Assembly (NCBI GenBank): GCA_905479995.1
Contig: CAJQON010000004.1
Coordinates: 1 to 64,000, forward strand
Reading direction: 5' to 3'
DNA: 64,000 nucleotides
Source of the DNA: an uncultured Flavobacteriales bacterium
GTDB lineage: Bacteria; Bacteroidota; Bacteroidia; Flavobacteriales_E; Vicingaceae
Below are positions 16,076-32,300 of this stretch, piece after piece (position 1 is the first letter of the stretch; every line of letters begins with the position of its first letter). The translations under genes were made by a program, and so were the position numbers. The notes under the pieces were generated by a model that was not told where the DNA came from, made no database searches, and was given only the letters and a program-made list of their open reading frames with translations.

Positions 16076-17233
16076 TTATAAAGTACCTCTTTTTTGTTGT
16101 TCTCTTTCTATGCTTTCAAACAAAGCCTTAAAGTTTCCTGCACCAAAACCTCTAGCACCCATTCGTTGAATTATTTCAAAAAATAAGGTTGGTCTGTCTT
16201 CTACTGGTTTGGTAAATATTTGTAATAAATACCCTTCTTCATCAGCATCTATCATAATACCCAACCCTTTTAAGGTTTCAATGTCTTCTTTTAATTCGTG
16301 GTTATGGTCTTCCAATCTTCCAGGTACTGACCTGTAATATTCTTCTGGTGGAGTAGATAAAAATTCTATCCCTCTAGCTCTTAATTGAGATACTGTTCCA
16401 ATAATATCATCGGTAGCCATAGCAATGTGTTGTACTCCAGATCCTTCATAAAAATCTAAATATTCTTCAATTTGAGATCTTTTGGCTGCTTTAGCTGGTT
16501 CATTAATTGGAAATTTAATTCTTCCATTACCATTACTCATTACCTTACTCATTAAAGCTGAATATTCTGTGTGTATTTGCTTGTCATCAAACGATAAAAA
16601 GTTAACAAACCCCATTACATCTTCATACCATTTTACCCAGGTATTCATTTCTCCCCAACCTACATTACCAACCATGTGGTCAATAAACTTAAGTCCGGTT
16701 GGTTCAGGATTGTAATCCGATTTCCAAGCTTTAAATCCTGGTAAAAATTCTCCTTTGTAGTTTTTACGTTCCACAAACATGTGAACGGTTTCGCCATAAG
16801 TATAAATACCAGCTCTTACCACTTCTCCATGTTCGTCTTTTTCTACAGTAGGCTCCATGTAAGATTTAGCACCTCTTTTGGTGGTTTCTTCGTACGATTT
16901 TCGTGCATCATCTACCCATAAAGCTACTACCTTAACACCATCACCATGCTTTACAATGTGATCGTTAATTGGTGATTTTGAGTTTAAAGGAGTGGTTAAT
17001 ACTAGTTTAATTTTGTCTTGTGTTAACACATAAGAAACCGTATCGGTACTTCCTGTTTCTAAACCTCTGTAGGCGTATGATTGAAAACCAAATGCTGTTT
17101 TATAGAAGTGTGCCGCTTGTTTGGCGTTACCTACATAAAACTCTACATAATCGGTCCCTAATAATGGTAAGAAGTCTTGTGCATCTTCAAATATTTTTTC
17201 TAATCCGTATTCTACGTTTTTTATATCGCTCAT
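16076..17233 (-). CDS. hppD: 4-hydroxyphenylpyruvate dioxygenase
   Basis: This non-heme iron enzyme converts 4-hydroxyphenylpyruvate to homogentisate in tyrosine breakdown. Two vicinal-oxygen-chelate halves are present. The iron ligands appear as His186 (FIDHMVGNV), His269 (GVQHIAMATDD) and Glu353 (LFFEIIQRMGARG), and the C-terminal helix after GFGAGNFKALFESIE closes the active site. I take the ATG at 17233 (MSDIKNVEYG, 385 residues); an upstream TTG would add eight implausible Lys/Asn-rich residues. The product is the substrate of the homogentisate dioxygenase encoded immediately upstream, so the two form a catabolic unit, here in reverse pathway order. No fumarylacetoacetase gene is in the window. 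Confidence 0.97.
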   Translation of the reverse strand: MSDIKNVEYGLEKIFEDAQDFLPLLGTDYVEFYVGNAKQAAHFYKTAFGFQSYAYRGLETGSTDTVSYVLTQDKIKLVLTTPLNSKSPINDHIVKHGDGVKVVALWVDDARKSYEETTKRGAKSYMEPTVEKDEHGEVVRAGIYTYGETVHMFVERKNYKGEFLPGFKAWKSDYNPEPTGLKFIDHMVGNVGWGEMNTWVKWYEDVMGFVNFLSFDDKQIHTEYSALMSKVMSNGNGRIKFPINEPAKAAKRSQIEEYLDFYEGSGVQHIAMATDDIIGTVSQLRARGIEFLSTPPEEYYRSVPGRLEDHNHELKEDIETLKGLGIMIDADEEGYLLQIFTKPVEDRPTLFFEIIQRMGARGFGAGNFKALFESIEREQQKRGTL

Positions 17234-17283
17234 TTTGTTGTTTTTTTTAAGATTCAAGATTAAAAGAAGTAAGAGAAAAGACC

Positions 17284-17382
17284 CTAGTCTTTTAACTTAC
17301 TCATAAATCCAGTAATCATTTTTTGTAACTCTATTATTCTAGTTTCTAATTCTTTAAATTCAGCTGCAGAAATGTATGTTAA
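17284..17382 (-). pseudogene. 3' stub of a four-helix-bundle (23S rRNA intervening-sequence-type) protein gene
   Basis: On the minus strand, 32 codons plus a stop read LTYISAAEFKEL then ETRIIELQKMITGFMSKLKD. This closely resembles the last helix of the short four-helix-bundle proteins of Bacteroidota (S23/IVP family), which typically end '...YIS..EF..L......EI.KMI.GLI..LK'. A stop codon lies in frame immediately before it, and the roughly 85 preceding residues of the family are missing. It sits in the gap between hmgA and hppD, so insertion of the intact gene there and later deletion is the simplest history. No start codon in a plausible place is seen. Confidence 0.65.
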
Positions 17383-17412
17383 TTAAAGTACTGCATCTCT
17401 CCGTCTTGTCTC

Positions 17413-18573
17413 TTAGTGATCGAGCCAAGATTGGAAGTACGTTCCATCCTCAATATCTAATGCTTGTTGTGTTACTTTTAGTGGTGCAAAGGTATCTACC
17501 ATTACGGCCAATTCTTCTGTTTCTTTATGTCCTATACTTCGTTCCATAGCTCCAGGGTGAGGACCATGAGGAATTCCGGCAGGATGTAAGGTAATTTGAC
17601 CTTTATCGATGTTGTTTCTACTCATAAAGTCACCATCTACATAATACAACACTTCATCAGAATCTATATTACTATGATGATAAGGCGCTGGAATTGCTTG
17701 TGGATGATAATCATATAATCTTGGTACAAAAGAACATATTACAAAAGCCGAAGTCTCAAATGTTTGATGTATTGGTGGAGGCAAATGCACTCTACCTGTT
17801 ATTGGCTCAAAATCGTGTATAGAAAATTTGTAAGGAAAGTTATATCCATCCCAACCTACTACACTAAAAGGATGTGCTGCATAATTATACACATGCATTA
17901 CATCTTGTTTTTTTACTTTAACAGTAAAGTCTCCTACTTCATCAAAGGTTTCTAATTCTGTTGGTGGATGTAAATCTCGTTCACAAAATGGTGAATCTTC
18001 AAGATGTTGCCCAAAGTAATTCCGGTAACGTTTTGGCGTATAGATGGGTTGTTTAGATTCTACTATAAACAAACGATTGTCTTCGGTATCAAAGTTAATT
18101 TGATAGATCATTCCTCTTGGAATAACAATGTAATCACCGTATTCAAAATCAATGTTTCCGAGGTGTGTTCTAAGCTTTCCGCTTCCTTTATGGATAAACA
18201 AAACTTCATCAGAGTCGGTATTTTTATAAAAGTACTCTGTTAACGATTTTTTAGGAGCTGCTAATACGATTGTACAATCGTTGTTAAATAAAACTGGCAC
18301 TCTGCTTTCTAAGTAATCGTTTGTAGCTGGAACGTCAAATCCTTTTAAACTAATGGATTTCATGTTTTTTTCTACTGCAGCAACTGGCTCAACATTATAT
18401 GATTTTACTACTTCTTTTACTTGTGTTGGTCGTTGTGTATGGTATAGTAGTGATGACATTCCGTCAAATCCTATGGTACCAAATAATTCTTCGTAATAAA
18501 AGTTCCCTTCTGGGCTTTTAAATACGGTATGTCTTTTCTTAGGAATGTTTCCTAATTTATGATATCGTGGCAT
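17413..18573 (-). CDS. hmgA: Homogentisate 1,2-dioxygenase
   Basis: This enzyme opens the aromatic ring of homogentisate to maleylacetoacetate, the step after HppD in tyrosine degradation. The 386-residue protein starts MPRYHKLGNIPKKRHTVF and has the cupin-like architecture of the family: GEVLFIHKGSGKLRTHLG-like first barrel strand (DEVLFIHKGSG), YVVIPRG-like turn (DYIVIPRGMIYQI), DGYNFPYKF, and the metal-binding C-terminal stretch HPAGIPHGPHPGAMERSIG. It belongs to the shorter bacterial branch rather than the 430-450-residue form. The gene is first in the pair with hppD; an inverted repeat lies 23 bases upstream of its start and may be an operator. The gap to hppD contains a gene stub. Confidence 0.95.
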   Translation of the reverse strand: MPRYHKLGNIPKKRHTVFKSPEGNFYYEELFGTIGFDGMSSLLYHTQRPTQVKEVVKSYNVEPVAAVEKNMKSISLKGFDVPATNDYLESRVPVLFNNDCTIVLAAPKKSLTEYFYKNTDSDEVLFIHKGSGKLRTHLGNIDFEYGDYIVIPRGMIYQINFDTEDNRLFIVESKQPIYTPKRYRNYFGQHLEDSPFCERDLHPPTELETFDEVGDFTVKVKKQDVMHVYNYAAHPFSVVGWDGYNFPYKFSIHDFEPITGRVHLPPPIHQTFETSAFVICSFVPRLYDYHPQAIPAPYHHSNIDSDEVLYYVDGDFMSRNNIDKGQITLHPAGIPHGPHPGAMERSIGHKETEELAVMVDTFAPLKVTQQALDIEDGTYFQSWLDH

Positions 18574-18595
18574 TTTTTATTTTTTATTGATTTCT

Positions 18596-18624
18596 AATTA
18601 AGTTAACTGGTTGTTAACTCAATT
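18596..18624. promoter_or_regulatory. Imperfect 12-bp inverted repeat upstream of hmgA (possible operator)
   Basis: The arms aattaagttaac and gttaactcaatt match at 11 of 12 positions around a 5-base spacer tggtt, with two perfect gttaac half-sites. It lies 23-51 bases before the hmgA ATG, where a repressor or activator of tyrosine catabolism would bind. No T-run follows, so it is unlikely to be a terminator. No regulator gene lies next to it. Confidence 0.5.
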
Positions 18625-18747
18625 CACTCAGGATTACGCTTGAGTTCCATCTTTACCCTTGCTTTATACTTTACACCTATTACTTTCATAGTGATGTAAA
18701 GGTACAAAATAGATATACGTTAAAAAAATGATAATTATCAGCTAAAT

Positions 18748-19188
18748 TTAATTGTCTGATTTAAACCATTCGGCATAAGAAGTTGGTGTTTCGCGCAATA
18801 AAAGATGGTCTAATTCAATGTGGAGTGGTAATTTTTCTTGAATTAAATCAACGTAATGTAGTAACAAGTTTTCGCAAGTTGGTTGAAAAGGAACCAATAT
18901 TAGTTTGTTCATAAAACTAAATTGCGAAGGGTCTATATTCATCTTATCAAAAAGGACCAAAGAATGGTCATATTCCTTAATAATAAGGGGTTCTACTATG
19001 TTTTTTAAGATGGTAAAGTCTACTACCATGCCTTCATCTGGATCATCAGTTCCGTTTTTTACATTTCCCTTAACTGTAACATTCAATTTGTAAGAATGGC
19101 CGTGAATATTTTTACATGGACCATCATGACCTAATAATGCATGGGCCATTTCAAACTTAAATTCTTTTGTTATTCTAATTACCGGCAT
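18748..19188 (-). CDS. queD: 6-carboxytetrahydropterin synthase / 6-pyruvoyl-tetrahydropterin synthase family protein
   Basis: A 146-residue T-fold enzyme acting on dihydroneopterin triphosphate. Zinc ligands His16, His29 and His31 (FEMAHALLGH; NIHGHSYKL) and catalytic Cys25 in the CxxxHGH arrangement are all present; this arrangement is typical of QueD, the second step towards queuosine. The C-terminal LRETPTSYAEW carries the Glu that anchors the pterin. The neighbouring tyrosine-catabolism genes leave a role in tetrahydrobiopterin supply conceivable, since phenylalanine hydroxylase needs a pterin, but no such hydroxylase is in view. It lies 40 bases after the propeller/phosphatase gene on the same strand and could share its transcript. 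Confidence 0.9.
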   Translation of the reverse strand: MPVIRITKEFKFEMAHALLGHDGPCKNIHGHSYKLNVTVKGNVKNGTDDPDEGMVVDFTILKNIVEPLIIKEYDHSLVLFDKMNIDPSQFSFMNKLILVPFQPTCENLLLHYVDLIQEKLPLHIELDHLLLRETPTSYAEWFKSDN

Positions 19189-19228: not shown

Positions 19229-22200
19229 TTACAATCTACTTCCAATAACAATTACATCATCTATTTGTTCATGGTTACCCATCCAGTCTGTAAATTCATT
19301 TTCTAAACGCTGTTTTTGCTCGTTCATTGGTAGTTCATTCATAGCTAACAAAAGTTCTTTAAAACGCTTGTACCTAAACTTTTTACCTTTTTGGCCACCA
19401 AATTGATCGGCATATCCATCAGAAAATAAGTATAGTGTATCGCCCGTATTGAGTTGTAAATCATGGTTGGTAAAGGCCTTTGTTTCATTAGAGTAGTTTC
19501 CTATAGGAAATCTGTTGGCCTTCACTTCATAAAGATTTAAGCCATTTTTGCCTTCCAATATAGATGGTAGGTCCTCGTTTTGAGCATTGCTTAATTGGTG
19601 TTTACTTGCAATATATAATGGGTTGTAAGCACCAGCATATTGCAAGGTTTTCTTTTTCTTATCAAAGCAACAAAGGGCAATGTCCATTCCATCTCTTATT
19701 TCTTCTTCACCTACTTCTTTTTTCAGGGTATCGGCAACACCTTTGTTTAATTCGTCTAATATTTTAGCGGGCTCTGTAATGCCATATTCCCCTACAATTT
19801 TATCCAATAAGTTATGACCAACTATACTCATAAATGCTCCAGGAACACCATGCCCGGTACAATCTACAGCTGCAAACAATATTTGATCGTCTTTAGCAGC
19901 CAACCAGTAAAAATCACCACTCACTATGTCTTTCGGGTTAAACAATATAAAGGTTTGACTTAATGCTTTGGTAAAACGTTCATTAGTTGGTAAAATGGCG
20001 TCTTGTATTCTCTTGGCATAAGTAATACTGTCAATAATGTCTTTGTTTTTACGTTCTAACTCTTGTCTTTGCAGTACTACCTTTTGTGTTCGTTCTTCTA
20101 CTTTTTCTTCCAATACTCTTTTTTCTTTAAGGAGCTTCTGTTCTCTTAGTTTTATAAAGCTTATTACCAATACTATTAATATTAGTGTACATAATATTAT
20201 AAACCAAGCACGCTGCCATATCGGTGGAACTATTTCAAAACTATAGGTAACCGGGCTACTGTTCCAAACACCATTGTTGTTTCTGGCCTTTAGTTTAAAG
20301 GTGTATTTACCTGGTGGTAATGGTGAGTATGATGCAAAGGTTTGATGTGTTGCGGGGCTCCAATCAATATCCAATCCTTCTAGCATTACTTTATAGTAAA
20401 CTTCATCGGGGTTGGTTAAACATATACTAGAGTAGTTAAATACAATGGATTTTTCTTTGTAACTCAATTCTAGGTTGTTGAGCATTTCTCTGTCTTCCAA
20501 GTTAATTTGCATGCCCGACAACTGAGTTAAAGGCTCTAATAAGTTTATGCTTTCTTGTTGATGGTTAAATTTAACGGCTCCAGCTATAGTACCAAACCAA
20601 AGATTTCCATTGCTTGCTTTAAAGGTAGCATTGGGTTTAGATTCTTTACCAACATACCCCATTTTTTCGGAGTAGGAGTAAAATTTATTGGCTTTTACAT
20701 CATATTTATTGAGGCCCTTATTGGTTCCTATCCAAATGTTATCCTCCTCATCTATATTTAATAAGGATACGTAATCGGATAATAATCCATTGGCAGCACT
20801 GTACTTTTGTACAATAGTATCTCTATTATAAATTACCACTCCTTTACCTTCTGTACCTATCCATAAATTGCCCTTACTGTCTTCTATTACAGATGTAGCT
20901 GTTATTTTTTGATTTAAGTTAATTGCTTCAATTTTATCTCCTTTTATTTTGGTAATTCCTTTTCCACGAGCTCCAACCCAAACTACGTTTTTAGCATCGG
21001 TATATACCGTGGTAATTTCATTTCCTGCCAATCCGTTTGATTGAGTTAATCTATTGGATAATTGATTGTCGATTTCATAATATACTAGTCCATCTGTAGT
21101 TCCTACCCACATGTTATTGTCCAGATCTATAGACAGAGCAGTAATTAATAGCTGGTTCATAAATGAATTGATTCTGTAATTCATTTCAAAGCGATTGGAC
21201 CGTGGCTTAAATTCCATTACTCCACCCCCCCAAGTACCAGCCCAAATGGTGCCATTCTTGTCTTGTTTTAAAAAACGAATTTGTTGGTAAGGTATACCCT
21301 TATTTTCATTATACACGCTAAGTAATTGCCCATTTTTATACACTGCAATTCCTTCGTTAGTTCCTATCCAAACCTTATCATCTTTGTCTTTTAAAATGGC
21401 CCACACTTGCTCATTTGGTAGCCCATCCATCAATCCATAAGACACAAACTGACTGCCTTTGTAAACAAACAAGCCAGTTTCTTTGGTTCCAAAAAGCAGG
21501 TTTCCTTCTCTGTCTTTGGCAATACACCTAATATGGTTGTCTTTTAATCCGTTGGTTTTATTCATAGACCAAACTTTTCCATTTTCCAATTTGGCAACTC
21601 CACCACCCCAAGTTGCCGTCCAAATAGTGCCATTGTCTCCTTCGTTAATAGAGCTAATCCAGTTGGATCCAAGTCCATCGCGAGTGTCATAAATAATTAG
21701 TTTACCTGACTTTTTTTGAAATTGGTATAAACCTCCATTGTATGTTCCAAACCATTGATCGCTATTTGATGCTTCATACATATAAGTAATTTGAAAGTAA
21801 GAGGGCATATTGGGAACCCGATAAAAATCAAAACTGTTTTTTTGATAGCTGTAATTTTTAACGCCCACATCGGTAACAAAGTAGATGTTACCATTCTTTA
21901 CTTTTTTTACTTGAAATACAACATCACTCAACCCTTCTTGACCTTTGTATTGCTTAAAACTAATGTCTTCTTTGTTGGTAGTGTAAGGATTGCTAATTTT
22001 TATTACTCCCTGGCCAAATGAACTTACCCAAAGGTTATGTTCATCATCTGCAGAAAATGAAGTAATGTCGGCACTTATGCTGAGAACAACTTCTATTTGG
22101 TTGTTTTGTATTCGAGATACTCCACCATCAACATGCCCAATCCAAAGGGTTCCAACAGTATCTATGTAAATTGCTTTAACGGCACCATCGGCCAAACCAT

Positions 22201-22441
22201 CTTCAGTAGAATAATTTACAAAATCTCTCCCATCAAAACGAGACAATCCACTGGCTGTACCTAACCAAATAAACCCTTTATTATCTTGTAAAACTGCATA
22301 TACACTGGATTGAGCCAAGCCTTCTTTTACACTGTAATTATCGAAATGATATTGCTGTGCATTACTTAAGCTACTTAATAGCAAAAAAATAACCGATAAG
22401 AACAATGCCTTATCGGTTAAATAGTTCTTTAATGTGTTCAT
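19229..22441 (-). CDS. Propeller sensor with transmembrane helix and SpoIIE-type PP2C phosphatase domain
   Basis: A 1070-residue sensor, started at the ATG at 22441 (MNTLKNYLTDKALFLSVIF, signal/anchor). Residues about 30-690 contain many two-component-regulator propeller repeats (WLGTASGLSRFDG, LWIGTEGKGVVIYN and similar), likely two seven-bladed periplasmic propellers. A Y_Y_Y domain follows (LPPGKYTFKLKARNNNG, about 704-738), then one transmembrane helix (about 742-764) and a coiled coil (LEEKVEERTQKVVLQRQELE). The cytoplasmic SpoIIE domain (about 810-1070) has metal-binding GDFYW, VDCTGHGVPGAFM and DGYADQFGG. It is a hybrid-two-component-like receptor with a Ser/Thr phosphatase output instead of a kinase. 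It is encoded just after the caspase-fold gene, with which it is presumably co-expressed. The signal sensed is unknown. Confidence 0.93.
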   Translation of the reverse strand: MNTLKNYLTDKALFLSVIFLLLSSLSNAQQYHFDNYSVKEGLAQSSVYAVLQDNKGFIWLGTASGLSRFDGRDFVNYSTEDGLADGAVKAIYIDTVGTLWIGHVDGGVSRIQNNQIEVVLSISADITSFSADDEHNLWVSSFGQGVIKISNPYTTNKEDISFKQYKGQEGLSDVVFQVKKVKNGNIYFVTDVGVKNYSYQKNSFDFYRVPNMPSYFQITYMYEASNSDQWFGTYNGGLYQFQKKSGKLIIYDTRDGLGSNWISSINEGDNGTIWTATWGGGVAKLENGKVWSMNKTNGLKDNHIRCIAKDREGNLLFGTKETGLFVYKGSQFVSYGLMDGLPNEQVWAILKDKDDKVWIGTNEGIAVYKNGQLLSVYNENKGIPYQQIRFLKQDKNGTIWAGTWGGGVMEFKPRSNRFEMNYRINSFMNQLLITALSIDLDNNMWVGTTDGLVYYEIDNQLSNRLTQSNGLAGNEITTVYTDAKNVVWVGARGKGITKIKGDKIEAINLNQKITATSVIEDSKGNLWIGTEGKGVVIYNRDTIVQKYSAANGLLSDYVSLLNIDEEDNIWIGTNKGLNKYDVKANKFYSYSEKMGYVGKESKPNATFKASNGNLWFGTIAGAVKFNHQQESINLLEPLTQLSGMQINLEDREMLNNLELSYKEKSIVFNYSSICLTNPDEVYYKVMLEGLDIDWSPATHQTFASYSPLPPGKYTFKLKARNNNGVWNSSPVTYSFEIVPPIWQRAWFIILCTLILIVLVISFIKLREQKLLKEKRVLEEKVEERTQKVVLQRQELERKNKDIIDSITYAKRIQDAILPTNERFTKALSQTFILFNPKDIVSGDFYWLAAKDDQILFAAVDCTGHGVPGAFMSIVGHNLLDKIVGEYGITEPAKILDELNKGVADTLKKEVGEEEIRDGMDIALCCFDKKKKTLQYAGAYNPLYIASKHQLSNAQNEDLPSILEGKNGLNLYEVKANRFPIGNYSNETKAFTNHDLQLNTGDTLYLFSDGYADQFGGQKGKKFRYKRFKELLLAMNELPMNEQKQRLENEFTDWMGNHEQIDDVIVIGSRL

Positions 22442-22448
22442 AAAATGC

Positions 22449-24788
22449 CTATTTCTTAATGAAGAAGAAAGTACCATTCTCATCTTCTAACCCAGCAATT
22501 TTACCAAATTTTGGTTTTTGCTTGGCTCCTGATTTACTTACTGCACTACTTACTTTTTTTACTACAGTTTCTATAGGAATACATGAGTTTGGATTACTTG
22601 ATAGTGTGTTGGCAAATGTTTTGGTAAATTGAGAGTTATCGGTTGCCAACTCATAACCAGCAGATGAAAATACCTGAGATGATTTAAATTTTGTGGCTTG
22701 CCAATCGGTACAACTCTTATCTGTTGGTGTAGAACGCATGGCCTGATAAAATGATGGGCCAGACTCACAAGCATCGGTTACGACCAAAGTATGTGTAATA
22801 TTTTTTGAGTAGGACTGCATTCCTGCTTTTAGGTTGTTAATGTTAAAATAAGTAAACTCATCATCTCTTTTGGCATTAGTTGGTATCCAATATCCCGACT
22901 CGTTTATAAATTTACCATGACCAGCATACCATACCAATAATGAGTTTACGCGGTTACTTCTTACCAAGTCTCTTAATTCAATAGAAAAGAAACGTTCTAA
23001 CTGTGTTTTGGTCATGTTCTTTTTATGTACCACATTATGAATTTTATATTTGGCAAAAGCTGACTTCATCATGGTAACATCTTTAGTTGGTCCATCTAAA
23101 CTAGCAAATGATTGGTATGTGGCATTTTCTATAAATATTACCCATGTTTTTCCCATAGGGTTATCAGCCAATAATGCTACATTCTCTCGATTAATGGTAA
23201 AACGCTTACTTGTTTTGTTTCCATAAATATCTTCAGAAGTAACAGTAAACTTATCTTTGTTCATGATGTTAATGCTAGCAGAAAATTTAGGATTATTTTC
23301 ATCCAAAACAAAGCTAGCAGTAGCACCTTCAATCATTATAGATTTAATTTTACTTTCATCTTGCATCACTCCCTCTACATATAATGTTGGATCATCAGAA
23401 TCTAGATATACTGTACCATCATCTGATGCATAAGGAGCCATTAATTTAACCACTGGAGCATCTGTTTCAGTTTCTAACTTTTTATAGCTCCATGTTTCTG
23501 AATTTTGATACACATCAAAAGCGGAAATATCGATGTTAGTCATCTCGCTCATATTTACTTCCAATTCAAAAGTTGGATTAAGGCTGTCTTTACTAAATAT
23601 GGCGTCCTTTCCATTAATCTTTATAAACCCTATTAAGCTTTCATCCTTTATTTGTCCTTTAATAGTATGTAATAAAGTCCCTTTGGCAACAGCCAAAACA
23701 TTTTCTTTTGGTGAGATTGGGTCTATCATTACTATGGTAGGATTGTTTTCTTCTTTGTTTAACTCAAACAATCTCTTTTTAGCATCATCATAAAGTTTTA
23801 AGGCTTTACCATCGTAAGGATCTAAATTCTTTAAAGCTTCATAATCTTTAACAGCCAATTTAAATTTTGAAACCGATTCATAAGCCTTAGCTCTTGTATA
23901 GTAAACAAAGTAATCTTTATCGTTAATAGTTAATGCTTTAGAATAATCTTCAATTGCATTTTGTGTTTGTCCCAATTCCTGATACTTTTCTCCACGTAAC
24001 ATGTAGTATTTTAGTTCATTAGGCTTATATGAAATTATTATAGAAATGTCATCCACAGCTTTTTGAGGATTACGGGCGGCTACGTGAATATCTGCTCTTA
24101 CCAATAATGCTTGAATATTTTCTGGGTCAAAGCTTAATGCTTTATCTGCAGCTTCTAAAGCTTTATCCAATTCTTCCATTTTCATTTGTGAAAAAGCCAA
24201 ACCTATGTATGCTTCCATCATTTTTGGCTCATAAAATTTAGCTCTACTAAAGCTATACACAGCATCTTCATATTTCATTAAACTATCTTGAGCAACACCC
24301 AAATCATAATAAGTTTTGCCTGACTTTAGTTTAAGTATAGCAGCTTTACCTGTTTCTACAGCTAACGGATATTGATTTAATTTAATGTGTGCATATAATT
24401 TATCTGAATATACTTCCATTAACTTTTTATCTCTTTCTAAAGCTACAGTAAAGGCTGCAATAGCTTTTTCAAAATCTCCTTTCAAGTAGTAATTTCTACC
24501 CAAACCAGCATGATACGCTGCCATTTTTGGTTTAACTGTTGTTGCTACTAAAAAATCGGCAATGGCTTTATCGTATTCTTTGGTTTTTTCATAAGACAAC
24601 CCTCTTAACGACAGAGATTTGTCAAATTCTGGTTTAACCTCAATTACTTGAGTAAGAAATCCTATGGCTTCAGAATAATTGCCTTGGTTATAAGCCGTTT
24701 CTCCTTTTTTATGGTGCTGAAAGTAGGCTTGAGAAAAGACGGCTACATTAAGGGTTAAAAAGAGTGCTAAAAGTTGTATTTTTTTCAT
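22449..24788 (-). CDS. Exported TPR protein with C-terminal caspase-fold (C14) domain
   Basis: A 779-residue protein with signal peptide MKKIQLLALFLTLNVAVFSQ. Residues about 20-330 are some nine tetratricopeptide repeats (AYNQGNYSEAIGFLTQVIEV, AYHAGLGRNYYLKGDFEKAI and so on). Two beta-sandwich-like modules follow (about 345-520; both have 'G.(I/M).DES.I..I.I.G'). The C-terminal 250 residues are a caspase/paracaspase domain with catalytic His624 in WYAGHGKF and Cys674 in VVTDACESG, and a WVIFIENATY start. The catalytic dyad is intact, so proteolysis is likely. Signal peptide and domain order place it in the periplasm or on the surface. The stop lies 7 bases from the start of the propeller-phosphatase gene, implying one operon. 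The substrate is unknown. Confidence 0.92.
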   Translation of the reverse strand: MKKIQLLALFLTLNVAVFSQAYFQHHKKGETAYNQGNYSEAIGFLTQVIEVKPEFDKSLSLRGLSYEKTKEYDKAIADFLVATTVKPKMAAYHAGLGRNYYLKGDFEKAIAAFTVALERDKKLMEVYSDKLYAHIKLNQYPLAVETGKAAILKLKSGKTYYDLGVAQDSLMKYEDAVYSFSRAKFYEPKMMEAYIGLAFSQMKMEELDKALEAADKALSFDPENIQALLVRADIHVAARNPQKAVDDISIIISYKPNELKYYMLRGEKYQELGQTQNAIEDYSKALTINDKDYFVYYTRAKAYESVSKFKLAVKDYEALKNLDPYDGKALKLYDDAKKRLFELNKEENNPTIVMIDPISPKENVLAVAKGTLLHTIKGQIKDESLIGFIKINGKDAIFSKDSLNPTFELEVNMSEMTNIDISAFDVYQNSETWSYKKLETETDAPVVKLMAPYASDDGTVYLDSDDPTLYVEGVMQDESKIKSIMIEGATASFVLDENNPKFSASINIMNKDKFTVTSEDIYGNKTSKRFTINRENVALLADNPMGKTWVIFIENATYQSFASLDGPTKDVTMMKSAFAKYKIHNVVHKKNMTKTQLERFFSIELRDLVRSNRVNSLLVWYAGHGKFINESGYWIPTNAKRDDEFTYFNINNLKAGMQSYSKNITHTLVVTDACESGPSFYQAMRSTPTDKSCTDWQATKFKSSQVFSSAGYELATDNSQFTKTFANTLSSNPNSCIPIETVVKKVSSAVSKSGAKQKPKFGKIAGLEDENGTFFFIKK

Positions 24789-26690: not shown

Positions 26691-29600
26691 ATGAGATTTA
26701 CTACCGTTCCTTTTTTTAAACCAATAATTGCACTAATTATTATAACCTTGTCTTTTACTCGTTGTGGCAATAGCCCAACAGATATTATTGAAATAAATCC
26801 TGCTTTTGGAGAATACATTTCTGCATTTACTTCTGGTATTATTTCAAAAGAATCTAACGTTAGAATTCGATTGGCCGAAAGCAGTATTCATTACAATGAT
26901 GATGGAGCACCAATAGATAAAAGTTTATTTGATTTTTCACCTAATATAGATGGTGAGGCTTATTGGATTGATGAAAGAACCATTGAATTTCAGCCTGAAG
27001 AAGCAATGGCTTCTGGAACAATGTTTACTGGTGAATTAGAATTGGATGAACTATTGGAAGGTTTGCCAAGTGAGTTAGAAACCTTTGAATTTCAGTTTCA
27101 AACCATAGACCAAGCCTTTTCTGTTAATGTAGGTACTTATGAAACGTATGAAAAAACAAAGCTTCAATTAAACAAGCTTCCTGGAACCATTTTAACTGCA
27201 GATGTTATTGCAGATGAAGAAATTGAAAAAGTGTTGAGTGCAACTCAAAGTGGCAATCAATTAGACATTACTTGGGAGCATGAGTCGGATAAAAAAACAC
27301 ATTACTTTACCGTTGAAAAAGTAGTAAGAGAAGAAAATGCTGGCGAGGTAGCACTAAATTGGAATGGTGAAGTTGTTGGAATAGAAGAAAATGAAGGGAG
27401 TAATACCGTTGAAATTCCATCTTTAAGCGATTTCAAAGTCTTAAATGTTAGTGTTATACAGCAACCAGAGCAATACATATTAGTAGAATTCTCTGACCCA
27501 CTAAATGAAACACAGAACTTAAACGGCTTAATACGATTAGAAAAAAATAACTCTACCAGATACATTACGGAAGATAATCACATAAAAATTTATCCACCAG
27601 TTCGCCAATCAGGTTCTAGAAAGCTTTATATAGAAGCAGGAATAAAGAATATTTTGAATTACAAAATGAAAGCCAAACAAGAAATTGAAGTGGTTTTTGA
27701 AGACATTAAACCTTCGGTTAGGTTAACAAGTGATGGTGTAATCTTACCTAGTACAGATGGTTTAGTTTTTCCTTTTGAAGCCGTAAACTTAAAAGCAGTT
27801 GACGTTAGAATTATTCAAATTTTTGAAGATAACGTTGCACAATTCTTACAAGTCAATCAGCTTGATGGCGACAGACAATTGAAACGAGTTGGACGTTTGG
27901 TTCACAAGGAAACCATTAAACTAAAATCTAAATCGCTGATTGATTTTGGAAAATGGAATGCCTTTTCATTAGACCTATCAACATTTATTGCCACTGAACC
28001 TGGAGCGATATATAAAATTGAGCTTGGATTTAAAAAAGGCTACTCACTATACCCTTGTGAAGGTGATGACCCAAATGCTGAAGAGATGGAAAGCTTGGAA
28101 GAAAACTGGGACGAAGATGATGAGAAAGAACAAAGTAACTGGGATTATTACGAAGACTACTACTATGATGATTATTACTATTATGATGATTATGGTTATG
28201 ACTATAACTATAGAGATAGAGATAATCCTTGTTCAACCTCTTATTTCGGTAAACGAAGAAACGTAAGTCGTAATATCCTTGCTTCAGATTTAGGTATAAT
28301 TGCTAAAGCTGGCAATAATGGTTATATGAATTTTGCTGTTACAGATTTAAGAACAACCGCTCCTATTGCTAATGTAACGTTAGAGGTATACAATTACCAA
28401 CAACAATTAATAGGAACTGTTCAAACCAACAACGAAGGATTGGCACAAATAGAGATCGACAAAAAACCATTCTTATTAATTGCTAAAAAAGACAAGCAAA
28501 GAGGCTACTTAAGGTTAGATGATGGTTCGTCCTTATCGCTGAGTAAATTTGATGTACAAGGAGAAGTAGTTCAAAAAGGAATTAAAGGATTTATTTATGG
28601 CGAACGTGGTGTTTGGCGTCCAGGAGATTCCCTTTTTGTAATGTTTATACTAGAAGATGAAGAAAAACTATTACCAAAAAACCATCCAGTTTCTTTTGAA
28701 CTAATTAATCCACAAGGGCAAACAGAAAGCAAAACCATTAAAACAAATGGCGTTAACGGTTTCTATAACTTTTCTACAAGAACAGAAGCTGATGCACCAA
28801 CGGGGAACTGGACTGCTAAGATTAAAGTTGGTGGTGCTATTTTTAGAAAAACACTTAAAATAGAAACAATTAAACCCAACCGATTAAAAATTAATCTCGA
28901 TTTTGGAGTAGAAAAACTTACTACAGCCAATAGCAATATTGCTGGAAAATTAAATGTAAAATGGTTACACGGAGCAAAAGCTAGAAACTTAAAAGCTGAC
29001 ATTACTACTACCCTATTTCAATCAAAAACAAAATTTAAAAAGTATCCAGACTTTACTTTTGATGATCCTGCTCGTAGTTTCGATTCAGAAGAAATTACTG
29101 TATTTAAAGGTAAAATTGACAATGACGGAAATGCTTCAGTTGCAGTAAACATAAATGTTTCAGATGAAGCGCCAGGCATGTTAAAAGCTAATTTTGTAGC
29201 CAGAGTATTTGAGGAGAGTGGTGATTTTAGTATCGATCGTTTCTCGGTAGACTATTCTCCTTATGAATCTTATGTAGGAATAAAAATGCCTAAAGGTGAT
29301 AAAGCCCGAGGCATGCTCTTAACCGATACCAATCAAACTGTAAAAATTGTAACTGTTGATGAAGAAGGCAGACCAATTTCGAGAAAAGGCTTACAGGTAG
29401 AAGTTTATAAAGTAGAATGGCGCTGGTGGTGGAGCACAGGAACCGACAACTTAGCTTCCTACGTTAGTAGTTCTTATCGAACTCCTATTATTAAAAAAAC
29501 AGTGAATACTACCAACGGTTTTGGAAAATTTGATTTTAGAGTAGATTATCCAGAATGGGGAAGATATTTGGTAAGAGTTATTGATCCAGTTAGTGGTCAT

Positions 29601-32300
29601 GCTACAGGAAAAACAGTTTACATGGACTGGCCAGGATGGGCTGGGCGAGCACAAAGAGAAAATCCAGGCGGAGCTTCAATGTTAACCTTTAGTGCCAATA
29701 AAGACAAATACAATGTTGGTGAAAATGTAGATGTAAATTTCCCTTCTGCCAAAGACGGAAGAGCTCTTGTGAGCATAGAGTCTGGTTCCAAAGTAATTGA
29801 TGCTTATTGGGTTGAAACAGAACAAGACGAAACCAACTTTAGCTTTAAAGTAACGGAAGAGATGACACCTAATGTTTACATTAACATTACATTGGTTCAA
29901 CCTCATTTATATACGGCAAATGATTTACCAATACGATTGTATGGCGTAATTCCAATAGCTGTAGAAGATCCAAACACCAAAATTAAGCCGGTGCTTAACA
30001 TGCCAAAAATTTTGGCTCCAGAAGAAAATGTAACCATTAATGTTAAGGAACAGAATGGTAAAGCTATGACTTATACCATTGCCATGGTAGATGAAGGTTT
30101 ATTGGATTTAACTCGATTTAAAACACCTAACCCATGGAAAAGCTTTTATGCTAGAGAAGCATTGGGTGTTAAAACATGGGATATGTATGATTTTGTAATT
30201 GGAGCTTTTGGCGGTAAAATCGCTCAAATGTTTGCCATTGGTGGTGATGGTGAAGCTGTTGGTGCTCAAGGCAACAAAGCCAATCGTTTTAAACCTATGG
30301 TTAAGTTTTTAGGACCATTCCAATTAGAAAGTGGCGATAACCGTTCTCACACGTTTAAAATGCCTCGATACATAGGTTCGGTAAGAACAATGATAATTGC
30401 AGGACAAGATGAAGCCTATGGTTATGCAGACAAAACAACACCTGTAAGAAAACCATTAATGGTTTTGGCAACCTTACCAAGAGTTGTTGGACCAGGAGAA
30501 TCTGTAAAGCTTCCGGTAACTGTATTTGCAATGGAAAAACATGTGAAAAACGTTACGGTTGAAGTAAAAACAAACGGCTACTTTACAGGAGCAGGCAAAA
30601 AGACAATTACTTTTAATGAAATAGGTGATCAACTGGTCAACTTTGATTTAGAAGTTGCCAAGAAATTAGGTGTCGGTAAAGTTAAAGTTGTGGTGAAAAG
30701 CGGCAAAGAAAAAGCTGAATATGACATTGAGATTGACGTTAGAAACCCTAATCCACCTGTAGTTGATTATGTAGATGCGGTAATTGAATCGGGTCAAAAT
30801 TGGAATACAGATTACAGTCCTGTGGGAATTTCAGGAACCAATACTGGTACGCTAGAATTATCTAACATCCCTCCTATTGATTTTGGTAGAAGATTGAAAT
30901 ACTTAACACAATATCCGCATGGCTGTGTAGAACAAACTACATCAGGTGCTTTCCCTCAGCTATTTTTAAGTAGCGTAATGACGGTAGATGAAAAAATGAA
31001 AGGAAAAATATCTACCAACATAAAAGGTGCAATTAAGCGTTTAAAAACATTCCAACAACCGAATGGTGGTTTAGGGTACTGGCCCAACTCAAACAGTGCT
31101 AATGACTGGGGAACAAGTTATGCTGGACACTTTATGTTAGAGTCTGAAAAAATGGGTTATAGCCTACCTATTGGTTTTAAAAAGAACTGGATAAAATATC
31201 AAAAAAAGGCAGCCAGAAATTGGACAAGGACTTCAAAAAAGAACAAGTACTACTATAGAAGTCAAGATTTAATTCAGGCATATAGGTTGTACACTTTAGC
31301 ATTGGCTAAAAAGCCAGAGTTAAGTGCTATGAACAGAATGAGAGAACAAAAAAACTTATCTGTTCAAGGTAGATGGAGATTGGCAGCAGCATATGTATTG
31401 GCTGGGCAGCCTGAGGTTGCTAAAAAATTAACAACCAACCTTACAAAGTCTATTGCGGCTTACTCGGAAATGTCGAACAGTTATGGTTCATCCGAAAGAG
31501 ATGAAGCCATGATACTGGAAACAATGAGTTTAATGAAGCAACGCAGCAAAGCAGTTTCATTAATGAAAAAAGTTTCTGGAGCATTAAGTAGTAGCAGGTG
31601 GATGAGTACACAAACTACTGCATACAGCTTAATTGCCATGAGTAAATTTGCGGGAGATAATGCTACCTCTAAAGAATTGAAGTTTACGTACAACATTGGC
31701 AAAGGAAATGTAACTGGAGCAACTAAAAAGCCTGTAGCTCAAATTGACATGAAACTTAAAGGAAAGAGAGATGGCAAAGTTACCGTTAAAAATAGTGGCT
31801 CAGGAATACTTTATGCACGATTAACCTTGCAAGGTGTCCCAGAAACTGGAGATCAAACTTCTGCCAACAATAACCTTAATATGAGCATAAGGTATTTAAA
31901 TATGAAAGGCAAAGAAATTGATATAACTCAATTGGATCAAGGAACAGATTTTATTGCTGAAGTTAAAGTAAGAAACCCAGGGATATTAGGACATTATAGA
32001 CAAATGGCCTTAACTCAGATATTCCCTTCTGGCTGGGAAATACACAATTCTAGAATGGATGGTTTTAACAGTGTTCATGCCGCAGATATACCAACCTATC
32101 AGAACATAAGAGACGATAGGGTTTATACTTATTTTGATTTATTTAAAGGTAAAACAAGAACCTTTAGAGTTTTATTAAATGCAGCTTACTTAGGTAGATA
32201 CTACTTACCTACTGTATCTTGTGAAGCAATGTATGACAATAAAATTAATGCTAGAAAACCAGGCAAATGGGTTGAAGTAACTAAACCTGGCATACAATAA
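26691..32300 (+). CDS. Alpha-2-macroglobulin family protein with thioester motif
   Basis: At 1869 residues this is a bacterial A2M, a protease-trapping protein of the envelope. The N terminus is hydrophobic with Cys25 (SFTRCGNS), suggesting a lipoprotein, though Arg before the Cys departs from the usual lipobox. Domains include MG2-type modules (FIYGERGVWRPGDSLFVMFI, about 640), a bait/MG region (VDEGLLDLTRF, about 1135), the A2M domain (FKMPRYIGSVRTMIIAGQDE) and the thioester GCVEQ at Cys1412-Gln1415, followed by the alpha-helical toroid (GGLGYWPNSNSANDWGTSYA). Residues 459-514 are an unusual Asp/Glu/Tyr-rich insert. The usual partner gene pbpC is not adjacent; a small lipoprotein gene follows after 24 bases. 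Confidence 0.95.
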   Translation: MRFTTVPFFKPIIALIIITLSFTRCGNSPTDIIEINPAFGEYISAFTSGIISKESNVRIRLAESSIHYNDDGAPIDKSLFDFSPNIDGEAYWIDERTIEFQPEEAMASGTMFTGELELDELLEGLPSELETFEFQFQTIDQAFSVNVGTYETYEKTKLQLNKLPGTILTADVIADEEIEKVLSATQSGNQLDITWEHESDKKTHYFTVEKVVREENAGEVALNWNGEVVGIEENEGSNTVEIPSLSDFKVLNVSVIQQPEQYILVEFSDPLNETQNLNGLIRLEKNNSTRYITEDNHIKIYPPVRQSGSRKLYIEAGIKNILNYKMKAKQEIEVVFEDIKPSVRLTSDGVILPSTDGLVFPFEAVNLKAVDVRIIQIFEDNVAQFLQVNQLDGDRQLKRVGRLVHKETIKLKSKSLIDFGKWNAFSLDLSTFIATEPGAIYKIELGFKKGYSLYPCEGDDPNAEEMESLEENWDEDDEKEQSNWDYYEDYYYDDYYYYDDYGYDYNYRDRDNPCSTSYFGKRRNVSRNILASDLGIIAKAGNNGYMNFAVTDLRTTAPIANVTLEVYNYQQQLIGTVQTNNEGLAQIEIDKKPFLLIAKKDKQRGYLRLDDGSSLSLSKFDVQGEVVQKGIKGFIYGERGVWRPGDSLFVMFILEDEEKLLPKNHPVSFELINPQGQTESKTIKTNGVNGFYNFSTRTEADAPTGNWTAKIKVGGAIFRKTLKIETIKPNRLKINLDFGVEKLTTANSNIAGKLNVKWLHGAKARNLKADITTTLFQSKTKFKKYPDFTFDDPARSFDSEEITVFKGKIDNDGNASVAVNINVSDEAPGMLKANFVARVFEESGDFSIDRFSVDYSPYESYVGIKMPKGDKARGMLLTDTNQTVKIVTVDEEGRPISRKGLQVEVYKVEWRWWWSTGTDNLASYVSSSYRTPIIKKTVNTTNGFGKFDFRVDYPEWGRYLVRVIDPVSGHATGKTVYMDWPGWAGRAQRENPGGASMLTFSANKDKYNVGENVDVNFPSAKDGRALVSIESGSKVIDAYWVETEQDETNFSFKVTEEMTPNVYINITLVQPHLYTANDLPIRLYGVIPIAVEDPNTKIKPVLNMPKILAPEENVTINVKEQNGKAMTYTIAMVDEGLLDLTRFKTPNPWKSFYAREALGVKTWDMYDFVIGAFGGKIAQMFAIGGDGEAVGAQGNKANRFKPMVKFLGPFQLESGDNRSHTFKMPRYIGSVRTMIIAGQDEAYGYADKTTPVRKPLMVLATLPRVVGPGESVKLPVTVFAMEKHVKNVTVEVKTNGYFTGAGKKTITFNEIGDQLVNFDLEVAKKLGVGKVKVVVKSGKEKAEYDIEIDVRNPNPPVVDYVDAVIESGQNWNTDYSPVGISGTNTGTLELSNIPPIDFGRRLKYLTQYPHGCVEQTTSGAFPQLFLSSVMTVDEKMKGKISTNIKGAIKRLKTFQQPNGGLGYWPNSNSANDWGTSYAGHFMLESEKMGYSLPIGFKKNWIKYQKKAARNWTRTSKKNKYYYRSQDLIQAYRLYTLALAKKPELSAMNRMREQKNLSVQGRWRLAAAYVLAGQPEVAKKLTTNLTKSIAAYSEMSNSYGSSERDEAMILETMSLMKQRSKAVSLMKKVSGALSSSRWMSTQTTAYSLIAMSKFAGDNATSKELKFTYNIGKGNVTGATKKPVAQIDMKLKGKRDGKVTVKNSGSGILYARLTLQGVPETGDQTSANNNLNMSIRYLNMKGKEIDITQLDQGTDFIAEVKVRNPGILGHYRQMALTQIFPSGWEIHNSRMDGFNSVHAADIPTYQNIRDDRVYTYFDLFKGKTRTFRVLLNAAYLGRYYLPTVSCEAMYDNKINARKPGKWVEVTKPGIQ

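Follow-up and report, generated by a model that had tools for sequence, protein, structure and literature searches.

A conserved gene pair encoding an exported TPR-caspase and a propeller receptor with a SiaA-type phosphatase domain in uncultured Bacteroidota

The window analyzed here is a stretch of 64,000 nucleotides from an uncultured Flavobacteriales bacterium of the Vicingaceae (assembly GCA_905479995.1, contig CAJQON010000004.1, positions 1 to 64,000). It harbors two adjacent genes encoding an exported caspase with tetratricopeptide repeats (TPR) and a transmembrane receptor that combines an outer double propeller with an inner PP2C-type phosphatase domain. The pairing of these genes is no chance arrangement, as the caspase gene is directly followed by a receptor gene of the same orientation in 64 of the 72 orthologous loci with enough downstream sequence, at a median gap of 10.5 bp. 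Judged by sequence, the two-gene unit is carried by many uncultured marine and sediment Bacteroidota. The pair is real, conserved and, as far as searchable, undescribed, and it brings known families into a new combination. The chances are about evenly balanced that it constitutes a transmembrane signaling unit, in which the caspase would act on or with the propeller receptor, the SiaA-type phosphatase would signal to SiaC, and a hairpin in the first receptor codons would set expression.

22449..24788, reverse strand: TPR-caspase gene, 779 amino acids, predicted export (open reading frame (ORF); Pfam TPR and Peptidase_C14; orthologs)
19229..22441, reverse strand: propeller receptor-phosphatase gene, 1070 amino acids (ORF; Pfam; hydropathy; AlphaFold2 (AF2) model)

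Seven bases separate the caspase stop codon from the receptor ATG. The 1070 residues of the receptor are counted from MNTLK..., and the longest possible ORF begins at 22483. ORFs, Pfam matches and a residue check place both genes where the preliminary description had located them, with intact caspase and PP2C active sites.

Conservation of the pair and domain architecture

A query of GTDB genomes with the caspase protein yielded 74 loci in Flavobacteriales (Vicingaceae) and Bacteroidales, nearly all of them from metagenome-assembled genomes. The preliminary description had made a link between the two genes depend on their being conserved as neighbors, and they are conserved in this way. Upstream neighbors of the pair vary: Vicingaceae have a divergent YbaB-type gene there, other loci RibD-like, PyrH-like, DnaK or different genes (all named by eye); therefore, the pair survives rearrangement on its upstream side. 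Among 46 genomes of the family, 23 encode both proteins, two the receptor only, none the caspase only, and 21 neither (Fisher p 7e-11, uncorrected for phylogeny). In four of the eight exceptional loci (L039, L047, L097, L108) an orthologous receptor has been kept at an unlinked position. The preliminary description had asked whether the two genes co-occur across Bacteroidota; they do so in Flavobacteriales and Bacteroidales, with co-retention in the family genomes. A distribution across the whole phylum was rejected, as a phylum-wide sample of 395 genomes contained no further ortholog.

A second, paralogous pair is found in three family genomes (L126, L127, L128), in which a divergent caspase with 25-26% identity over the domain precedes another propeller-SpoIIE gene by about 12-17 bp. 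In quick trees the caspases of the two pairs fall into separate clades, as do the receptors. At locus L112, an exported caspase devoid of TPR lies immediately before a receptor, and the linkage is therefore independent of the TPR part. Further arrangements were observed in a few cases. At L060 and L062 an additional TPR-less exported caspase (258 amino acids) is encoded immediately 5' of the TPR-caspase, and one genome (L177 and L178, on G167:C96) has a long tandem array of exported caspase genes, counted as seven matches or as nine ORFs. At L042, from the same genus, the receptor is followed by a second SpoIIE-containing ORF (611 amino acids), perhaps a duplicated phosphatase module.

The caspase consists of the following parts:

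23757..24722, reverse strand: about nine TPR repeats, residues 23-344 (Pfam; AF2 predicted local distance difference test (pLDDT) about 95; TPR structures in Foldseek)
23190..23738, reverse strand: two beta modules, residues 351-440 and 446-533 (AF2 strands, pLDDT about 85; no Pfam name)
22506..23144, reverse strand: Peptidase_C14 domain, residues 549-761 (Pfam 57.1 bits, cut-off 21.4)
22917..22919, reverse strand: catalytic His624, present in 75 of 75 orthologs
22767..22769, reverse strand: catalytic Cys674 (DACESG), present in 75 of 75 orthologs

Its N-terminus carries a signal peptide without a lipobox. The score above the Peptidase_C14 cut-off and the His-Cys dyad identify the protein as a member of family C14, and this domain is the best conserved region of the caspase (mean 0.80 vs 0.49 for the TPR part). 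While the TPR and beta parts are well modeled by AF2, confidence is low over the C14 domain, which is why the Foldseek matches listed for the model are TPR proteins. A profile search was used for this domain instead and gave MALT1 paracaspase and metacaspases as the nearest solved relatives. D570 and D672, two acids of the S1 type, are invariant in all 29 aligned caspases. As they align with acids of MALT1 and metacaspases that build the pocket for a basic P1 residue, cleavage after Arg or Lys is predicted. C693 and C736 are nearly invariant among the orthologs and possibly form a disulfide. The score for the EACC1-associated caspase family (NF047832) was 42.8 bits, below its cut-off of 140.

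The receptor is divided into three parts:

20222..22357, reverse strand: extracytoplasmic double propeller and Y_Y_Y, residues 29-740 (Reg_prop, Y_Y_Y; fold of the BT4663 periplasmic domain)
20147..20209, reverse strand: single transmembrane helix, residues 745-765 (hydropathy; AF2 helix)
19232..19921, reverse strand: SiaA-type PP2C phosphatase, residues 841-1070, with D843, D860, D1008 and D1062 (Pfam; conservation; 6k4e)

Following a hydrophobic N-terminal segment, Pfam assigns Reg_prop (150 bits), Y_Y_Y (676-737) and SpoIIE (851-1067; 65 bits, cut-off 25), and the AF2 model is good (mean 87.5). The ectodomain comprises two seven-bladed Reg_prop propellers and Y_Y_Y as in hybrid two-component systems (HTCS), and matches the periplasmic domain of BT4663 with E 6e-48 and a TM-score (TMt) of 0.79; the match to PorZ is weaker, and the profile score for the PorZ family NF052228 stays below its cut-off (69.8 of 260 bits). 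The histidine kinase and AraC output of HTCS is absent, SpoIIE alone being found by Pfam after the transmembrane helix. The phosphatase resembles SiaA-PP2C (6k4e) in structure (TMt 0.90) and sequence (E 7e-42, 32% identical). It has the SiaA-type fold and all metal-binding aspartates, which are kept in 55-56 of 56 receptors. For the SiaA equivalog NF038263, 216 of the required 700 bits were obtained, and the match is limited to the linker and PP2C. Signal peptides, topology, folds and catalytic residues thus back the earlier proposal of a protease outside, a sensor across the membrane and a phosphatase inside.

Among the genes around the pair, a large protein resembling alpha-2-macroglobulin with a CVEQT thioester-like motif (by eye) is encoded at 26691-32300 on the forward strand, near the caspase. 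Such a gene neighbors the caspase in several Vicingaceae loci and nowhere beyond this family. Downstream of the receptor, at 16076-19188 on the reverse strand, lie genes for a 4-hydroxyphenylpyruvate dioxygenase, a homogentisate-dioxygenase-like protein and a PTPS/QueD-like protein; it is only in Vicingaceae that the PTPS gene comes after the receptor. A known defense system was rejected as an identity of the pair, since the anti-phage models of PADLOC matched neither the caspase nor the receptor.

A terminator-like hairpin in the first receptor codons

22390..22419, reverse strand: terminator-like hairpin in the signal-peptide codons of the receptor, proposed attenuator (terminator scan; junction counts; covariation)

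The hairpin begins 22 nt into the receptor ORF (coding strand 22419-22390) and consists of a 12-bp stem followed by a T7 tract. A hairpin near the start codon occurs in 32 of 65 receptor orthologs vs seven of 554 other gene starts, and six of 238 with a hydrophobic N-terminus. Under strict counting, which requires a stem of at least 10 bp lying wholly within the ORF, it occurs at 24 of 63 caspase-receptor junctions vs one of 363 other same-strand junctions, beginning at nt 19-34 of the ORF. The orthologs in these counts are related, and p values are not to be taken literally. When the same peptide was randomly recoded with synonymous codons, such a hairpin arose in 394 of 20000 cases. Among the genes tested, no such hairpin lies early in the ORF of other propeller receptors, of receptors from the second pair or of unlinked receptors. 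With relaxed criteria the unlinked receptors gave no more than weak hairpins, and in two paralogs and one SpoIIE gene a hairpin lies upstream of the start codon.

Vicingaceae and Bacteroidales have different stem sequences, and covariation is seen inside either group. Paired cells amount to 95.8% and 97.5% in the two alignments, with double changes in 7 and 14 cells and far lower values in all slid controls; as the rows of the second alignment were picked for carrying the hairpin, its paired percentage is favored, its double changes less so. The element is conserved by structure and not by sequence. With its stable stem, U tract and covariation it has the features of an intrinsic terminator. 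A known RNA family was rejected, as Rfam returned none for the hairpin.

A terminator that ends the caspase gene, with the receptor starting later, was rejected, since the receptor ATG and n-region precede the hairpin; between the hairpin and the mature part of the receptor there is no alternative Met. Because the ATG lies upstream, receptor mRNA must cross the hairpin, and any termination there has to be partial or regulated. The hairpin probably serves as an attenuator under ribosome control, the latter being proposed from this arrangement.

A possible route from the caspase to a SiaC-type phosphoprotein

The likely partner in the cytoplasm is suggested by paralogous receptors. In the window's own genome, one of them (L123, on G000:C2) is followed at few-base spacings by genes for SiaB and SiaC, and the same trio is present at L117, L118, L119 and L125. 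By gene content, this operon of a propeller-SpoIIE receptor, a SiaB-like kinase and a SiaC-like phosphoprotein is a self-contained SiaABC-type switch in Bacteroidota. SiaC is encoded in 46 of 46 family genomes and SiaB (DUF6272) in 44. In the core SiaC the surroundings of the phosphosite are retained (YFNTSSSK, vs LNTSSIK at T68 of P. aeruginosa SiaC; PMC7647112). No SiaB or SiaC gene adjoins the window receptor. Because of the paralogous operon and the presence of SiaC in all family genomes, a SiaC-type phosphoprotein, and not a sigma-factor antagonist, is the likely partner of this receptor, as far as paralog context and homology indicate.

On the outer side, pairwise distances computed for the caspase domain are tied more closely to the ectodomain of the receptor (partial r 0.56) than to its cytoplasmic part (0.13), with a bootstrap interval of 0.19-0.64 for the difference. 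Length-matched values are 0.52 vs 0.20, and those for the 37 loci outside Vicingaceae 0.42 vs 0.22. This rate correlation is a hint of a contact between caspase and receptor outside the cytoplasm, and the caspase may cleave or gate the receptor.

In the proposed signaling unit, the exported TPR-caspase would cut after basic residues, probably on or with the HTCS-like double-propeller ectodomain of the adjoining receptor. The inner SiaA-type PP2C would dephosphorylate a SiaC-family phosphoprotein with SiaB as counter-kinase, which would switch a downstream partner. The signal would accordingly run inward. In vivo, the terminator within the signal-peptide codons would attenuate transcription and set the expression ratio of receptor to caspase, since a ribosome that starts translating the receptor would open the hairpin and thereby allow transcription to proceed. 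A more specific form, in which the caspase acts directly on the ectodomain to reset the SiaC-type phosphoprotein in a proteolysis-gated partner switch, with the ribosome-sensitive terminator setting the stoichiometry, is advanced tentatively.

Several observations speak against such a unit. The caspase is kept at four loci (L058, L084, L098, L100) in genomes where no receptor ortholog was found and can therefore act alone, and in G008 and G026 a receptor but no caspase was detected. The preference for the ectodomain is gone in 15 Vicingaceae (0.13 vs 0.29), and the TPR and beta parts of the caspase do not exhibit it. About half of the orthologs do not have the hairpin. Two SiaA contacts to SiaC proposed from docking (F612, R652) are lost in the window receptor; they are also missing in the paralogs linked to SiaB and SiaC, so that their loss is no argument against SiaC. 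The window's genome encodes about 24 proteins with SpoIIE domains vs two SiaB and five SiaC genes, and a small set of phosphoproteins may be the common target of many phosphatases. The neighbors of its SiaC genes revealed no common output partner.

A possible alternative, also to be held tentatively, is a complex without proteolysis of the receptor, in which the TPR-caspase docks on the propeller as its periplasmic ligand or co-receptor; the protease would cut other envelope proteins and the receptor would read its state. Binding of the caspase-fold sortase PorU by PorZ is a precedent (PMC8545088), and the resemblance of the receptor to PorZ in profile and fold, the TPR array and the rate correlation with the ectodomain fit this arrangement. 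However, the receptor scores too low for the PorZ family (70 of 260 bits), PorU is a C25 and not a C14 peptidase, and strict conservation of the dyad argues that catalysis matters, without indicating the target.

It is unlikely that the proteins are co-regulated and mechanistically separate, with an independent envelope protease and a receptor sharing merely its promoter or stimulus. The four loci with a caspase alone and the mostly diverse operons of metacaspases (PMC3501461) are in line with this view, whereas the many contexts and two orders of the pair, its co-retention when unlinked and the second paralogous pair are not.

In Bacillus, STAS proteins serve as targets of SpoIIE/PP2C domains from this superfamily. 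It is nevertheless improbable that the window receptor controls a sigma factor through an RsbV/SpoIIAA-like partner of the STAS or anti-sigma type, since SiaA is the best solved relative and the paralogs sit with SiaB and SiaC, although the SiaC fold is itself anti-sigma-antagonist-like (PMC7647112); the anti-sigma-antagonist-like partner of the preliminary description is thus retained in fold and narrowed to the SiaB/SiaC switch by context and homology.

Relation to known systems

A literature search for caspases with SpoIIE or propellers in Bacteroidetes retrieved no description; subscription papers were mostly outside its scope, and the absence is weak evidence. Partners with SpoIIE, phosphatase or Reg_prop do not appear in the survey text on prokaryotic caspase operons (PMC3501461). 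The pair suggests a signaling route, not described previously, that could report events beyond the inner membrane to the cell interior.

Prokaryotic metacaspases and orthocaspases share the C14 fold and the His-Cys dyad, and TPR is a common partner domain (PMC3501461). The window caspase differs by its export, its own clade with conserved C693 and C736, and its constant association with a receptor. Most bacterial caspase homologs lack an assigned physiological role, and a receptor-locked caspase with a likely cytoplasmic substrate gives a specific, testable candidate pathway for one clade. PorZ-PorU likewise unites a double propeller and a cysteine peptidase of caspase fold, which work together outside the cytoplasm (PMC8545088). 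However, PorZ is surface-located without transmembrane helix or phosphatase, PorU is a C25 sortase, and the window proteins are no sequence members of these families.

The HTCS BT4663 and BT3049 of Bacteroides thetaiotaomicron also have a double seven-bladed propeller, Y_Y_Y and a single transmembrane helix before the output, which consists of histidine kinase, receiver and AraC, whereas the window receptor has a PP2C phosphatase and a caspase partner gene. With SiaABCD of Pseudomonas aeruginosa it shares the type of PP2C output domain, and SiaB and SiaC families are found in the window's genome as well; in contrast, its sensor is a propeller, SiaB and SiaC are encoded elsewhere, and no SiaD partner was identified. 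Propeller sensors of Bacteroidota would feed a SiaABC-type serine/threonine switch.

The layout of a ribosome-sensitive terminator coded in the receptor's own signal peptide appears, as far as searchable, not to have been described before, and would compactly tie receptor transcription to receptor translation. Ribosome-mediated attenuators such as bmrB-bmrCD of Bacillus subtilis (PMC4191407) likewise have a terminator whose formation translation could prevent, in that case in a separate leader, whereas the putative attenuator of the pair would be located in the second structural gene, among its signal-peptide codons.

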